From Ancylobacter aquaticus (GTDB lineage: Bacteria > Pseudomonadota > Alphaproteobacteria > Rhizobiales > Xanthobacteraceae), in contig NZ_SMFY01000007.1 of NCBI RefSeq assembly GCF_004339465.1, positions 1 to 64,000 on the forward strand: a stretch of DNA of 64,000 bases. The letters are read 5' to 3'. The notes under the pieces are model-generated. The model had not been told where the DNA came from. It saw only the letters and a list, made by a program, of their open reading frames with translations, and searched no databases. The position numbers and the translations under genes are program-made. Below, piece after piece: positions 10,186 through 49,902 of this stretch; the stretch's first letter is position 1, and each line of letters begins with the position of its first letter.

Positions 10186-11067
10186 ATGATGGCCGTCATC
10201 GCCGATCTGATCGACCCCGCCTTCGAGATCGTGCAGCCAGCCTCGCTTCGCGCCCCGTTCCTGTTCAATTCGCCCCATAGCGGGGTGGTCTATCCCCGCG
10301 ACTTCGTCAGCCAGTCGCGGCTCGAACTCCCGGTGCTGCGCCGCTCCGAGGACAGTTTCGTCGACGAGTTGTTCGCCCAGGTGACGCGCTTCGGCATGGG
10401 GTTCATGCGCGCGCATTTTCCGCGCTGCTATCTCGACGTGAATCGTGAACCCTATGAGCTCGACCCGCGCATGTTTGACGGGCGGCTGCCGGCCTATGCC
10501 AACACGCGCTCCATGCGGGTTGCCGGCGGGCTCGGTACCATTGCCCGCATCGTCGGCGAGGCGCAGGAGATCTATGGCCGCCGCATTCCGGTGGACGAGG
10601 CAATTGCGCGCATCGAATCGCTGTACAAGCCCTACCACCGCTCGCTGCGGCAGTTGATGGTGCAGATGCAGCGCAGCTTTGGCGTCGCTGTGCTGGTGGA
10701 TTGCCACTCGATGCCTTCGGGCTGCCAGCGCGATGCACGCATCGACATCGTGCTGGGCGACCGCTACGGCACGAGCTGCGCCGGGATCATCCCCGATACG
10801 ATCGAAGCGGAACTACGCCGGCGCGGCTATTCGGTGGTGCGCAACAAGCCCTATGCCGGCGGCTTCATCACCGAGCATTACGGCAACCCGGCCTCCGGAA
10901 TGCACGCCGTGCAGATCGAGATCAACCGCGCCCTCTACATGCGCGAGGCGACGTATCAACCCTCCGAAAATTTCGAAATCGTGCAGAATGACCTGCTGGA
11001 GGTGGCGCTGGCGCTCGCCGAGGTGCCCCATCTGGAGCTGGCACCGCTGCGGACCGCTGCTGAATAA
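10186..11067 (+). CDS. N-formylglutamate amidohydrolase family protein
   Basis: 293 residues (ATGATG start behind GAGGA). The family pattern is clear: NSPHSGVVYP (28-37), the acidic RRSEDSFVDELF, DVNREPYELDPRMF, the metal-site LVDCHSMPS and the C-terminal HAVQIEINRALYM. Members deformylate N-formylglutamate in histidine breakdown (HutG type) or related N-formyl compounds. No hut genes are nearby, so the substrate here is open. It is divergent from cpdR. Downstream lies an AT-rich stretch with no gene. Confidence 0.85.
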   Translation: MMAVIADLIDPAFEIVQPASLRAPFLFNSPHSGVVYPRDFVSQSRLELPVLRRSEDSFVDELFAQVTRFGMGFMRAHFPRCYLDVNREPYELDPRMFDGRLPAYANTRSMRVAGGLGTIARIVGEAQEIYGRRIPVDEAIARIESLYKPYHRSLRQLMVQMQRSFGVAVLVDCHSMPSGCQRDARIDIVLGDRYGTSCAGIIPDTIEAELRRRGYSVVRNKPYAGGFITEHYGNPASGMHAVQIEINRALYMREATYQPSENFEIVQNDLLEVALALAEVPHLELAPLRTAAE

Positions 11068-11346: not shown

Positions 11347-11446
11347 AAAAGAAAGAGGCCGCTTACGCAGCGCGCAAGCGGCCCAAGTCTAGGGAGGAAA
11401 CGCCCAAGGAGGGCTGTACGCAGCGACGCCAATCGCTGGGTACGAG
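11347..11446 (-). ncRNA. CUCC-rich small RNA, copy 1 of 3
   Basis: Transcribed leftwards, about 100 nt, with the 5' end estimated from the -10. In order: hairpin AGCGA-TTGGCG-TCGCT (11437-11422); hairpin GCCC-TCCTT-GGGC (11414-11402); unpaired TTTCCTCCCTAGACTT; and a 12-bp terminator stem GGCCGCTTGCGC-GCT-GCGTAAGCGGCC (11383-11357) followed by TCTTTCTTTT. Two CCUCC-type motifs could pair with Shine-Dalgarno sequences. It shares a 31-nt identical core with copies 2 and 3. The layout recalls the anti-SD small RNAs known as alpha-r14, CcsR and cuckoo RNAs; membership is not shown. Function unknown. Confidence 0.75.
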
Positions 11447-11452
11447 TGCAAG

Positions 11453-11479
11453 ATGTAGGTGCATTGCGGATTAATCAAG
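11453..11479 (-). promoter_or_regulatory. Candidate promoter of small RNA copy 1
   Basis: On the minus strand CTTGAT (11479-11474) and CTACAT (11458-11453) stand 15 nt apart. The -10-like hexamer is 21 nt before the UUGGCG loop, nearly the same offset as in copies 2 and 3. CTTGATT-N13-CCTACAT also resembles a heat-shock (RpoH) promoter. Suggestive only. Confidence 0.35.
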
Positions 11480-12231
11480 GCACCCATCGGCGGTTTCTGG
11501 CATACCAAATACGGTAGCGGGCTCGGTGTGGTATTATTGCCGCATTCGACGGTATAAAAATACTTTTCAGGAGTGCGGGTCGCCCTGACGGGCGTTGACG
11601 GGCCGACCGGGGGGTCGCGGCGCGTCAGCGCCCGCTTCCGTTAGGCTCGCCGTAGCCCGCCGCGCGAGCACGCCTCCATGCGGGCGCGCTTCAGATCGGC
11701 GTTCATATCCGGCGCTCAAAGCCGCCGCTCTCCAAAGCCCGCGAACCTGCCCCACGCTGGCCCGCCCAAATCGGCGTGCTCCAGACGGGGCTCTCCAAGC
11801 CGCGCGCTCAAAGCCACGCGCTCAAAATCCGGCGTTCCAAACCGGCATGCCGCCCCGCCGTTCCCCCTTTTGGACACAGCCGCACGCACCGGCGCGGACC
11901 CTCCCGGAGGGTTGCCTGCCCTTTCCAGGGCCGGGCCGCTTTGCCGGCAAACGCTCCCGGCTCTCCGTCTCTGGTTTCGGCCGGGATGACGGGGCCGTCG
12001 AGGGCATTCCAAACGCCCTCCCGCCCGTGCTGGCCCGCAGGCGCCTCGCTGGCGCATTCCGGTGTGGCATGCCTGACGCGTTACCGCACCGCGCGCTCTC
12101 CCAGATCAGGGGTTCCCACTGCGGACCGCACAGACGCGCGCTGGCGCCTCGTCAATGGGCGCAGGATATCAGCCGGTTGGCCTCCGGCACTGGAAGGCAG
12201 CGACGAGAGGCGCAAGAGAACGGCTTGGCCC
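11480..12231. other. Gene-free 750-bp segment between small RNA copies 1 and 2
   Basis: No convincing protein gene. The left 90 bases are AT-richer (GTATAAAAATACTTTTCAGG). From about 11690 to 11850 there is a run of degenerate short repeats built from CTCAAAGCC, CTCTCCAA(A)GCC and (A)AATC(C)GGCG units, which keeps several frames open by chance. Around 11950-11990 a CCGGGATGACGG piece resembles the dispersed REP-like repeat. Long open frames on both strands lack ribosome sites and shift composition along their length. Confidence 0.55.
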
Positions 12232-12333
12232 AAAAGAAAGAGGCCGCTTACGCAGTGCGCAAGCGGCCCAAGTCTAGGGAGGAAACGCCCAAGAAGGGCG
12301 GCGACAGCGTGACGCCAATCACGCCGCCGCAAC
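12232..12333 (-). ncRNA. CUCC-rich small RNA, copy 2 of 3
   Basis: Same order as copy 1. The first hairpin is GCGTGA-TTGGCG-TCACGC (12324-12307): the stem differs from copy 1 on both sides while the UUGGCG loop is kept, a compensatory change. Then come GCCC-TTCTT-GGGC, the unpaired TTTCCTCCCTAGACTT, and the terminator GGCCGCTTGCGC-ACT-GCGTAAGCGGCC (12268-12242) followed by TCTTTCTTTT. The second CUCC motif is altered to UUCUU in this copy, which may change its targets. It has the best promoter of the three. Confidence 0.78.
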
Positions 12334-12339
12334 GCAATA

Positions 12340-12368
12340 ACCATAAGCTCCCGGCGTTCGCCTGACAA
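12340..12368 (-). promoter_or_regulatory. Sigma-70-like promoter of small RNA copy 2
   Basis: Minus strand TTGTCA (12368-12363), 17-nt spacer, TATGGT (12345-12340). The expected start, about 7 nt on, gives a transcript near 102 nt ending at the copy 2 terminator. Only one base of the -35 departs from TTGACA. Confidence 0.6.
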
Positions 12369-12587
12369 CCGCCAAGCGAAAGAAACGAAACTGCCAATTG
12401 GTCGCAGGCGTTCAAATGATGACAATCGCGCGTCCTACGCGCGTCCAGCCCACCGTGCCGCTGAACCGCTGGCATGGCCGGGACTAAGCGCGGGAGATAT
12501 TCGTAATCCCGCGCACCGGCACGGCTGCGCGGCCGGGCGCAGACAAGGCGCCGGCGACGAAAACTGTTAAATTTCAAGAGGTTGCTG

Positions 12588-12687
12588 AAAAAGAAAGGGG
12601 CCGCTCACGTTGCCGGAGCGGCCCAAGTCTAGGGAGGAAACGCCCAAGGAGGGCGGCGGTAAGGCGACGCCAATCGCTCTACCGCGC
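12588..12687 (-). ncRNA. CUCC-rich small RNA, copy 3 of 3
   Basis: The most diverged copy but with the same plan. The first hairpin is GCGA-TTGGCG-TCGC, followed by GCCC-TCCTT-GGGC, the identical TTTCCTCCCTAGACTT, and a terminator GGGCCGCTC/GAGCGGCCC (12624-12616 with 12606-12598) followed by a CTTTCTTTTT tract. The terminator stem has changed on both arms relative to copies 1 and 2 (CTT/AAG to CTC/GAG), again preserving pairing. Conservation of structure over sequence outside the core argues for an RNA rather than a peptide. Confidence 0.75.
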
Positions 12688-12693
12688 TGCAAT

Positions 12694-12722
12694 AATATGG
12701 CAGGTTCACTTCTCCGGCGCAA
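12694..12722 (-). promoter_or_regulatory. Candidate promoter of small RNA copy 3
   Basis: Minus strand TTGCGC (12722-12717), 17-nt spacer, CATATT (12699-12694), 21 nt before the conserved UUGGCG loop. The offset from -10 to loop agrees with copies 1 and 2 within one base. The -35 is weak. Confidence 0.45.
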
Positions 12723-12938
12723 CGACTGAATTGCCCATTTCTTGACCATGCCGGAATGGCAGCCATGCGTGGAACGCGGGGCATTTTTGACGAGCGCCCC
12801 TCATTTGGCGCGGGCCCGCCTTGCCGCAACGGCACCGGCCCCTCGTTGCTGGATGATTGCCGTGCCCGCCGCCTGTCGCTAGGAGTGGAAGCGGCGGGCG
12901 GCGGGCGCCGGCATGTGCAAGCGACAGGGGCAGGGCCG

Positions 12939-13724
12939 ATGGGTGCGGTGGACTTCGAGATTTTCGTCGACGAACTCGCCACCGTGTCCGGCCAGGCCAT
13001 CCTTCCCTTCTTCCGCACCGCGCTGGGTGTCGAGGACAAGAGCCGCGGCGCGGTGTTCGATCCGGTGACGGCCGCCGACCGCGCGGCCGAGCAGGCAATG
13101 CGCGCCCTCATCCGCCGCACCTTTCCCAGCCATGGCGTGCGCGGCGAAGAATTTCCCGACGAGGGCATCGATGCCGACTATGTCTGGGTGCTCGACCCGA
13201 TCGACGGCACCAAATCGTTCATCAGCGGCATGCCGGCCTGGGGAACGTTGATCGGCCTGTGCCGGCAGGGCCAGCCGGTCTACGGCATGATGCACCAGCC
13301 CTTCATCCGCGAGCGCTTCACCGGCGACGGCCAGCAGGCGCGCTATCGCGGGCCGGCGGGCGACCGGCGGCTCACCGTGCGCCATTGCGGCGGCCTCGGT
13401 GAGGCGGTGATGATGACCACCAGTCCGCTGCTGATGGAAGAGGACAACCGCGCCCTCTATACGCAGGTGGAGAAGCGCGTGCGCCTGCCGCGCTATGGCG
13501 GCGACTGCTACGCCTATTGCATGCTCGCCGCCGGCCATGTCGATCTCGTCATCGAGACCAATCTGAACGATTTCGACATATTGCCCCTCACCCCCATCGT
13601 GCAGGGCGCCGGCGGCATCGTCACCAATTGGGAAGGCGGCACGGATCTCACCAGCGGGCGCGTCGTCGCCTCGGGCGATCGCCGGGTGCATGACGAGGCG
13701 CTGAGCGTGCTCAACCGGGGCTGA
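12939..13724 (+). CDS. hisN: Histidinol-phosphatase, inositol monophosphatase family
   Basis: 261 residues from MGAVDFEIF, with AGGGG upstream; a 61-codon upstream extension of the frame has poor composition. Motifs of the Mg-dependent IMPase fold are in order: VTAADRAAEQAMR, GEEF, the metal-binding DPIDGTKSFISG and a late NDFDILPLTPIV. This form is the alphaproteobacterial HisN, which removes phosphate from histidinol phosphate in the last steps of histidine synthesis; an inositol-phosphatase role cannot be ruled out from sequence alone. No other his genes are in the window. Confidence 0.8.
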   Translation: MGAVDFEIFVDELATVSGQAILPFFRTALGVEDKSRGAVFDPVTAADRAAEQAMRALIRRTFPSHGVRGEEFPDEGIDADYVWVLDPIDGTKSFISGMPAWGTLIGLCRQGQPVYGMMHQPFIRERFTGDGQQARYRGPAGDRRLTVRHCGGLGEAVMMTTSPLLMEEDNRALYTQVEKRVRLPRYGGDCYAYCMLAAGHVDLVIETNLNDFDILPLTPIVQGAGGIVTNWEGGTDLTSGRVVASGDRRVHDEALSVLNRG

Positions 13725-47021: not shown

Positions 47022-47747
47022 TCAGCCGAGATATTGGCCGCCATTGGCGGAGAGTGTCGAGCCGGTGATGAAACCCGCCTCGTCGGCGGCGAGGAACACC
47101 ACGCAGCGGGCGATCTCGTCAGCTTCGCCGAGGCGGCCGACCGGGATCTGCGGAATGATGCTCTTCTCCAGCACGTCCTTGGGCACGGCCAGCACCATCT
47201 CGGTGGCGATGTAGCCCGGGCAGATCGCGTTGACGGTGATGCCCTTCTTCGCGACTTCTTGCGCCAGCGCCTTGGAGAAGCCGATTTCGCCGGCCTTGGC
47301 GGCGGAATAATTGGTCTGGCCCATCTGGCCCTTCTGGCCGTTGATCGACGAGATGTTGACGATACGGCCGAAGCCACGCTCGCGCATGTCCTCGATCACG
47401 TTGCGGCACATGTTGAACACCGAGGAGAGGTTGGTGTTGATCACCGCGTGCCAGTTCTCGGGCGACATCTTGTGCAGCATGCCGTCGCGGGTGATGCCGG
47501 CATTGTTCACCAGCACCTCGACCGGGCCGAGCTTTGCCGTCACCTCGGCGATGCCCGCCTTGCACGCCGCGAAGTCGGAAACGTCCCATTTGAAGGTGGG
47601 GATGCCGGTCTCTTCGGTAAACGCAGCGGCAGCCGCGTCATTGCCGGCATAATTGGCGGCGACGGAATAGCCGGCCGCCTTCAAGGCTTTGCTGATGGCC
47701 GCGCCGATGCCGCGCGTACCCCCGGTGACCAATGCAACACGCGCCAT
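47022..47747 (-). CDS. phaB: Acetoacetyl-CoA reductase
   Basis: 241 residues behind GGGGAAGAC. Short-chain dehydrogenase: VTGGTRGIGAAISKALK for NADPH, NNAGITRDGMLHKM, the Ser in IVNISSINGQKGQMG and catalytic Y-x3-K in NYSAAKAGEIGFSKALA. These, with the Q-rich GQKGQMGQTNYS loop, mark PhaB rather than FabG. It reduces acetoacetyl-CoA to (R)-3-hydroxybutyryl-CoA for polyhydroxybutyrate. Downstream of phaA by 134 nt; no PHB synthase gene is in the window. Confidence 0.95.
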   Translation of the reverse strand: MARVALVTGGTRGIGAAISKALKAAGYSVAANYAGNDAAAAAFTEETGIPTFKWDVSDFAACKAGIAEVTAKLGPVEVLVNNAGITRDGMLHKMSPENWHAVINTNLSSVFNMCRNVIEDMRERGFGRIVNISSINGQKGQMGQTNYSAAKAGEIGFSKALAQEVAKKGITVNAICPGYIATEMVLAVPKDVLEKSIIPQIPVGRLGEADEIARCVVFLAADEAGFITGSTLSANGGQYLG

Positions 47748-47881
47748 GTCTTCCCCCTCTGGCGTCCCTTCCCCAGGGAACTCTCGACGGTTTGTACGTC
47801 GATTCTTGATGACGGCAAGGTCGCGAGCCCGCCTTGCCGTCGCGATTGGTCACAGCTTTTATCGGCCGCGCCGACGCAGGG

Positions 47882-49060
<1,179 letters not shown>

Positions 49061-49317
49061 GAATGACGTCCTCCGGTACGGTCCTGTAGTCGGGCTCGGC
49101 CCGCGGGCCTGCGCCTCACCTTCTCGATCAGGTGTGACAGCATCGTGGTAGCCACCCGTGATCCATGTCAATGGCACCCGGCTTTTCCTGACGTGAGGTC
49201 AAGAGCACCGCCCGCCCTGCCCCGCGCGCGGCGTTGAGCCGCCACAATTCCTGTAGCCGGGCGGTGGGAAACGTCCTAGAGTTTTCAATGGGAAACGATC
49301 AAGGCGACTGGATCACA

Positions 49318-49902
49318 ATGGCAAAATCCAACGAACCCGTCACCATCAAGAAATACGCGAACCGCCGCCTGTACAATACCGGCACGAGCACCTATGTGAC
49401 GCTCGAAGACCTCGCGCAGATGGTCAAGAACGGCGAAGACTTCGTCGTCTACGACGCGAAGTCATCCGATGACATAACGCACTCCGTGCTGACCCAGATC
49501 ATCTTCGAGCAGGAAGGCAAGGGCCAGAACCTCCTGCCGATCAATTTCCTTCGCCAGATCATCCGTTTCTACGGCGACAGCATGCAGATGCTGGTACCGC
49601 GCTATCTCGACATGACCATCGAGAATTTCAGCAAGGAACAGAACAGCCTGCGGGAGAACTTCTCCAAGACGCTGGGCATTGGCGGCATTGGCGGTTTCGG
49701 GATTCTGGACGAGCACGTCCGCCGGAACATGGAAATGTTCGACCGTACCTTCAAGATGTTTCTGCCCGGCGGCCGCGCCGAGGACAGCGCCGCGGCACCG
49801 GCGGCCAGCCCGCAGCCCGACGATTTCGACGAACTGCGCCGGCAGGTTGCCGATATGCAGAAGCGCCTCGACAAGCTCGGCGACGGCGGCAAGAAAGAGT
49901 GA
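49318..49902 (+). CDS. phaR: Polyhydroxyalkanoate synthesis repressor
   Basis: 194 residues from MAKSNEPVTIKKYANRRLYN. The PHB/PHA accumulation regulator DNA-binding domain (6-65) and the following block DFVVYDAKSSDDITHSVLTQ are clear, with a coiled-coil C-terminus (DELRRQVADMQKRLDKL). PhaR binds both PHB granules and promoters of granule-protein genes, lifting repression when polymer accumulates. An ATG ten codons upstream (49288) is an alternative start. The divergent phaA-phaB pair is a likely target, with 257 nt between. Confidence 0.93.
   Translation: MAKSNEPVTIKKYANRRLYNTGTSTYVTLEDLAQMVKNGEDFVVYDAKSSDDITHSVLTQIIFEQEGKGQNLLPINFLRQIIRFYGDSMQMLVPRYLDMTIENFSKEQNSLRENFSKTLGIGGIGGFGILDEHVRRNMEMFDRTFKMFLPGGRAEDSAAAPAASPQPDDFDELRRQVADMQKRLDKLGDGGKKE

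Follow-up and report, generated by a model that had tools for sequence, protein, structure and literature searches.

Why does a bacterium keep several closely similar small RNA (sRNA) genes side by side? The question is raised by a 64,000-nucleotide stretch of Ancylobacter aquaticus DNA (contig NZ_SMFY01000007.1, positions 1 to 64,000; hereafter the window), in which three units of about 100 nucleotides (nt) are encoded on the minus strand between positions 11,347 and 12,722. The units are members of the known sRNA family alpha-r8/MmgR, and it appears likely that they form a three-gene tandem array with PhaR-box promoters which is linked to polyhydroxybutyrate (PHB) and acts mainly as one effector under three switches.

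Family and distribution of the three units

An initial annotation, made from the sequence alone, had described three structured minus-strand units of about 100 nt in a fixed order, and this description is confirmed. Each unit covers the Rfam model RF00519 in full (1-77) and exceeds its gathering score of 41 (Table 1), the E values in a cmscan of the whole window being 1.2e-11, 5.8e-11 and 5.2e-10 for copies 1 to 3, far beyond chance, and each folds better than all 200 of its shuffles. RF00519 is also known as suhB, MmgR or alpha-r8 and is described in Rfam as 'Makes More Granules Regulator RNA (mmgR)'. The runner-up in a permissive search of the region was SorY, which reached 21.7-24.3 bits, its cut-off being 111. 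The assignment to alpha-r8/MmgR follows because RF00519 lies over its cut-off and the next family far below its own. Further traits of the family are present as well: the alpha-r8 10-mer UUUCCUCCCU follows the small hairpin in all three copies, with little or no pairing in the folds, a predicted rho-independent terminator (a GC-rich stem and T tail) closes each copy, an N-formylglutamate amidohydrolase (FGase) gene of family PF05013 adjoins copy 3, and the PhaR/AniA palindrome known for Sinorhizobium meliloti mmgR has a putative counterpart, YGCRNYGCR, in all three window promoters. A fourth RF00519 match in the same genome (L004, 1501-1586, on contig 2) is barely over the cut-off at 41.1 bits and is doubtful as a fourth copy, the UUUCCUCCCU core being absent.

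The initial annotation had likened the units to alpha-r14, CcsR and cuckoo RNAs, but the Rfam covariance models point to RF00519 instead. Alpha-r14 (RF02344, cut-off 58.8) has no match in the array even at E <= 10; genome-wide at E <= 1 there are four weak matches, all outside the array and all under the cut-off, of which the best (35.3 bits) is locus L215 on contig 4. Stress RNAs of the CcsR/cuckoo type, which RNase E excises from a joint transcript started at a heat-shock promoter, would share the tandem array and the CUCC-type motifs. However, every unit here has its own terminator and an upstream promoter-like region, and the array is flanked by the FGase gene and hisN rather than by a DUF1127 gene (none among the two neighbours scanned), which together with the missing alpha-r14 match makes such an origin very hard to credit.

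An RF00519 match is present in 117 of 119 genomes from the family (E <= 1e-4); across the order, 257 of 297 genomes carry between 1 and 9 (E <= 1e-6). None of the 30 genomes searched in the genus Ancylobacter has fewer than three matches (E <= 1e-8), and in 27 of them the number is exactly three. Comparisons below use a clade set of 22 genomes and 66 units, comprising the window and 21 genomes found by an exact pattern and including two metagenome-assembled genomes (MAGs), a strain whose deposited name is Bosea sp. and another entered as Xanthobacteraceae bacterium. Every genome in this set has three units in constant order, copies 1 and 2 lying 333-382 bp apart and copies 2 and 3 343-2355 bp apart, unit to unit. 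Both the FGase and the hisN flank were found in 21 of the 22 genomes, the DNA chunk of A. oerskovii ending before the FGase gene. Most of the Xanthobacter, Azorhizobium and Aquabacter loci examined have two copies in the FGase/hisN slot, and Kaistia has one.

Separate promoters and alike 3' ends

Each copy appears to have its own promoter-like region and terminator, as initially annotated. The accompanying claim of a -10-like hexamer 21-22 nt before the UUGGCG loop fits one choice of hexamer in copy 2 only; with the hexamers tried, the distance to the loop comes to 16-21 nt, according to which one is taken. From the -35- and -10-like elements of the array promoters, RpoD and RpoH types are not distinguishable.

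What the promoters have in common is a putative PhaR/AniA box. YGCRNYGCR occurs in 61 of the 66 clade promoters, compared with 167 of 2414 equally sized background windows (6.9%), and it is the commonest of 24 half-site permutations (61/66, the next reaching 24/66), counts which come from related rather than independent sequences. At least one box lies upstream in 18 of 20 order-wide loci, a set picked by hand from the best RF00519 matches and drawn from 19 families. Two PhaR-type boxes are also located near -126 and -95 in the phasin promoters of 13 of 13 genus genomes (best phasin match per genome). In S. meliloti, PhaR (AniA) is reported to bind a palindrome with the core YGCRNYGCR, the mmgR promoter included, and its electrophoretic mobility shift of that promoter is lost once the palindrome is removed or mutated (PMC12542648). 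The proposed regulator of the array is the PHB-binding repressor PhaR/AniA encoded in the window, whose gene scores 152.6 bits with TIGR01848 (cut-off 109.45). This gene belongs to a PHB locus at 47022-49902, in which the acetoacetyl-CoA reductase and thiolase genes (minus strand) and phaR (plus strand) are divergently oriented. Because all three promoters keep the box, the output of the array would be tied to PHB status: by analogy with S. meliloti, DNA-bound PhaR would repress the array and PHB granules would titrate PhaR off.

Other inputs may be supplied by copy-specific blocks. In an alignment of 16 genomes each copy has a conserved upstream block of its own, approximately GCATGGCTGCYATTCCGGCA for copy 1 and GTTTCGTTTCTTTCGTTT for copy 2, while copy 3 has TGGTATGCCAGAAA and GCCTTGATTATTCCGCAATGC. 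These blocks support, but do not prove, the initial suggestion that the copies divide conditions between them. They also bear on redundant dosage, that is, on three similarly behaving promoters whose only effect is to supply more of one sRNA, conditions being undivided. Dosage would be served by one core in three copies, by homogenised terminators and by a box type common to all promoters, but it is at odds with upstream regions that are conserved per copy class and carry differing blocks, and with a promoter identity of 0.727 between orthologous copies of different genomes versus 0.539 between copies of one genome; we consider it unlikely. Promoters of different copies are no more alike within a genome than across genomes (0.539 versus 0.536, reached in 140 of 2000 permutations).

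Terminators of different copies, in contrast, resemble each other more within genomes than between them. Their identity is 0.776 versus 0.728 (0/2000 permutations), 0.803 versus 0.751 in a second cut (0/5000) and 0.819 versus 0.761 among 14 hand-chosen representatives (0/5000), the same representatives having no within-genome excess for promoters (1507/5000) or stems (392/5000). In A. crimeensis one terminator stem is common to all three copies, and in A. rudongensis copies 2 and 3 have in common a base that is absent there in polymorphus, 501b and vacuolatus. We read this homogenisation as a probable trace of gene conversion of the 3' part. Gene conversion is not demonstrable from the core alone because the core is nearly invariant, its 16 nt being identical in the three window copies and near-identical in the 66 units (one T-to-C change at the last base). 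In the window the terminator of copy 1 is unlike those of copies 2 and 3, which differ by one loop base only. The identical core of the initial annotation is real, with a length of 32 rather than 31 nt.

Homogenised terminators combined with copy-specific promoters look more like one effector under three switches than like split target sets. Repeated exchange between copies would keep the 3' working part alike, so that the genes would act mainly as one effector, and each Ancylobacter copy may be made under its own condition, all of them PhaR-gated and all acting on the same targets. Several observations weigh against this interpretation. The -10 element of copy 2 in the window, TATGGT, is poor. 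The box is absent in 5 of the 66 promoters. In copies 1 and 2 the +1 boxes coincide in part with the 5' stem, so that conservation of the stem may account for part of the conservation of the box. Across all 22 genomes the stems have a weak within-genome excess (41/5000), which is gone in the 14 representatives, and in one MAG (L130) copies 1 and 2 have identical 5' stems; exchange is therefore not always confined to the 3' part. Finally, pairing of the core with the phasin leader in 13 genomes never beats shuffled leaders, the lowest fraction being 0.095.

A fuller model is offered tentatively, and we would sooner doubt it than accept it as a whole. According to this model, alpha-r8 in Ancylobacter would be a three-input PHB-linked device with a gene-converted seed and terminator, in which three PhaR-box promoters with differing box places and blocks let PHB gate three signals onto one target set, and the long 5' stem would be general to the alpha-r8 RNAs of the order.

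The 5' stem and its loop

The 5' stem consists of 12 positions in copies 1 and 2, with one mismatch in copy 1, and of 11 with a mismatch in copy 3. The initial annotation had given it 4-6 base pairs with compensatory changes; the covariation stands and the length does not. In a MAFFT alignment of 62 distinct units (identical units merged, copy 2 of gelatini excluded at a chunk edge), standard pairs make up 91.6% of the named structure's cells, compared with 83.5% in shuffles and 37-53% with slid partners, and both sides change in 166 cells versus 53.7 in shuffles (0/500 reach 166); these controls are not probabilities, the structure having been taken from the same, related sequences. In the 5' helix both sides change in 9 of the 12 pairs. 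Two-sided cells are found within copy classes as well, with 19 in 6 pairs for copy 1 (21 rows), 17 in 6 pairs for copy 2 (20 rows) and 6 in 2 pairs for copy 3 (19 rows), two rows that fit two classes being omitted. The homologues thus keep the stems, as the initial annotation had expected, with compensatory changes across the 62 rows.

The hairpin lies outside the RF00519 model, on its 5' side, and is found at the corresponding place in 19 of the 20 order-wide loci as judged by eye (L184 weak, -9.6 kcal/mol), which suggests that the Rfam alpha-r8 model omits a conserved 5' hairpin. The stem may already be described for MmgR, since a review gives that RNA 'three stem-loops'.

The loop UUGGCG is present in 66 of 66 clade units while the surrounding stem changes, a count to be read with the fact that 21 of the 22 genomes came from a pattern requiring this loop at least once; in four genus genomes drawn by RF00519 alone it is present in 12 of 12 units. 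Several dispersed copies in Microvirga (loci L059-L169, e.g. L095), one of them on plasmid pMVF16-1, have the same loop. A constant, exposed loop in copy-specific stems would be compatible with the split target sets of the initial annotation, in which each copy would reach mRNA targets of its own through a differing 5' hairpin. Yet the loop is identical in all units, and the stems vary freely with compensation, which suggests that structure matters rather than sequence. The core is also the same and the terminators are homogenised within genomes, and split target sets are accordingly regarded as improbable.

The features of the array and its surroundings are collected in Table 1. The assignment of hisN is supported by TIGR02067 (305.3 bits, cut-off 275.15). 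A degenerate repeat-like stretch occupies approximately 11690-11860 in the region between copies 2 and 3 (11470-12200).

Table 1. Positions in the window of the three sRNA genes, their promoters and associated genes; units extend from the 5' stem through the end of the T tail
Feature	Position	Strand	Details
sRNA copy 1 (distal, beside hisN)	12685-12588	minus	RF00519 67.0 bits; fold z -4.57
Copy 1 promoter region	12683..12722	minus	TTGCGC at 12722, CATATT 12699-12694; conserved among 16 aligned genomes
Copy 1 PhaR-like box TGCAGCGCG	12691-12683	minus	box in 19/22 copy-1 promoters
Copy 1 5' stem	12685-12674/12667-12656	minus	loop UUGGCG 12673-12668
Copy 1 hairpin GCCC-UCCUU-GGGC	12654-12642	minus
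Copy 1 unpaired core UUUCCUCCCUAGACUU	12640-12625	minus
Copy 1 terminator	12624-12597	minus	T tail 12596-12588
sRNA copy 2 (middle)	12330-12232	minus	RF00519 64.4 bits; fold z -6.60
Copy 2 promoter region	12328..12368	minus	TTGTCA at 12368, weak TATGGT 12345-12340
Copy 2 PhaR-like box TGCGTTGCG	12336-12328	minus	box in 22/22 copy-2 promoters
Copy 2 conserved block GTTTCGTTTCTTTCG		minus	immediately upstream
Copy 2 5' stem	12330-12319/12312-12301	minus	loop UUGGCG 12318-12313
Copy 2 hairpin GCCC-UUCUU-GGGC	12299-12287	minus
Copy 2 core	12285-12270	minus
Copy 2 terminator	12269-12240	minus	T tail 12239-12232
sRNA copy 3 (proximal, beside FGase gene)	11444-11347	minus	RF00519 60.6 bits; fold z -5.39
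Copy 3 promoter	11450..11478	minus	TTGATT at 11478, CATCTT 11455-11450
Copy 3 PhaR-like box CGCAATGCA	11468-11460	minus	between TTGATT and CATCTT; box in 20/22 copy-3 promoters
Copy 3 conserved block TGGTATGCCAGAAA		minus	upstream
Copy 3 5' stem	11444-11433/11426-11416	minus	loop UUGGCG 11432-11427
Copy 3 hairpin GCCC-UCCUU-GGGC	11414-11402	minus
Copy 3 core	11400-11385	minus
Copy 3 terminator	11384-11355	minus	T tail 11354-11347
FGase gene, family's usual neighbour	10186..11067	plus	PF05013 240.2 bits
hisN, histidinol-phosphatase (inositol monophosphatase family), other flank	12924..13724	plus	PF00459 170.5 bits; start codon unfixed
phaR (aniA), PHB-binding repressor, proposed array regulator	49234..49902	plus	PF07879 107.3 bits; start codon uncertain

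Targets and comparison with known systems

It is proposed that each gene gives rise, from its own promoter to its own terminator, to a trans-acting RNA of about 100 nt, in which the unpaired UUUCCUCCCUAGACUU, probably aided by the UYCUU loop, would pair with purine-rich ribosome-binding regions of mRNAs. The initial idea that an exposed CUCC-type motif could cover ribosome sites is upheld as a possibility. By analogy with relatives, such pairing, probably with Hfq, would repress translation: the Caulobacter alpha-r8 RNA SisA is reported to repress target reporters, with pairing predicted for its conserved seed, and alpha-r8 RNAs to act with Hfq (PMC12559287). S. meliloti that has lost the MmgR core is reported to contain more PHB and more phasin protein (PMC8401924). 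The pattern AGGGAGGAA stands just before the ATG of five genes versus one for the reversed pattern, and two of the five encode solute-binding proteins; they are too few, and the pattern too like a Shine-Dalgarno sequence, for these genes to be called targets, and they give no more than a lead. The array might alternatively be mainly a decoy, or be controlled by a sponge RNA like Caulobacter CrfA. A genome search for the complement of the 16-nt core (<= 2 mismatches) found it only at the three array sites, although a shorter site could escape it, and a role of this kind seems remote.

The array would tie a so far uncharacterised Ancylobacter locus to a known carbon-storage circuit. The reasons for which bacteria retain sibling sRNAs could also be tested cleanly on it as a natural case, given that promoter and 5' stem differ, the seed is constant and the terminators are still exchanging. 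Literature searches on Ancylobacter small RNA returned titles on other matters only, and among the matches listed for concerted evolution of sibling sRNAs the term 'sibling sRNAs' was absent; exchange among sRNA siblings within a genome is possibly a new evolutionary pattern. The alpha-r8 family itself, its FGase linkage and the occurrence of several, including adjacent, copies per genome are already published (PMC12559287).

Among known systems, the CcsR1-4, cuckoo and alpha-r14 (NfeR1) RNAs are likewise alphaproteobacterial sRNA arrays with CUCC-type motifs, but the CcsRs are described as sharing with a DUF1127 gene a transcript that starts at an RpoHI/HII promoter, and as products of RNase E processing (PMC10253847), whereas the present array is flanked by the FGase gene and hisN. 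AbcR1 and AbcR2 of S. meliloti are also described as tandem homologous trans-acting sRNAs which are independently regulated; they belong to a different family. MmgR of S. meliloti shares with the array the RF00519 family, the UUUCCUCCCU core and a PhaR-type palindrome in the promoter region. It is reported as a single copy (PMC12559287), as opposed to three in tandem here, and its description as a 77-nt RNA with three stem-loops (PMC7143759) sets it apart from the present units, which measure about 100 nt and have a long 5' stem. SisA-SisD of Caulobacter crescentus resemble the array in being several alpha-r8 siblings with unrelated promoters, and sisA, like the array, adjoins an FGase gene (PMC12559287). 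A long complement of the CrfA kind was not found in the genome search described above. Three of the Caulobacter siblings are reported to be dispersed, whereas in Ancylobacter all three copies lie in the FGase slot, and the 'weak hairpin' described upstream of the Caulobacter core contrasts with the strong, covarying 5' stem found here.
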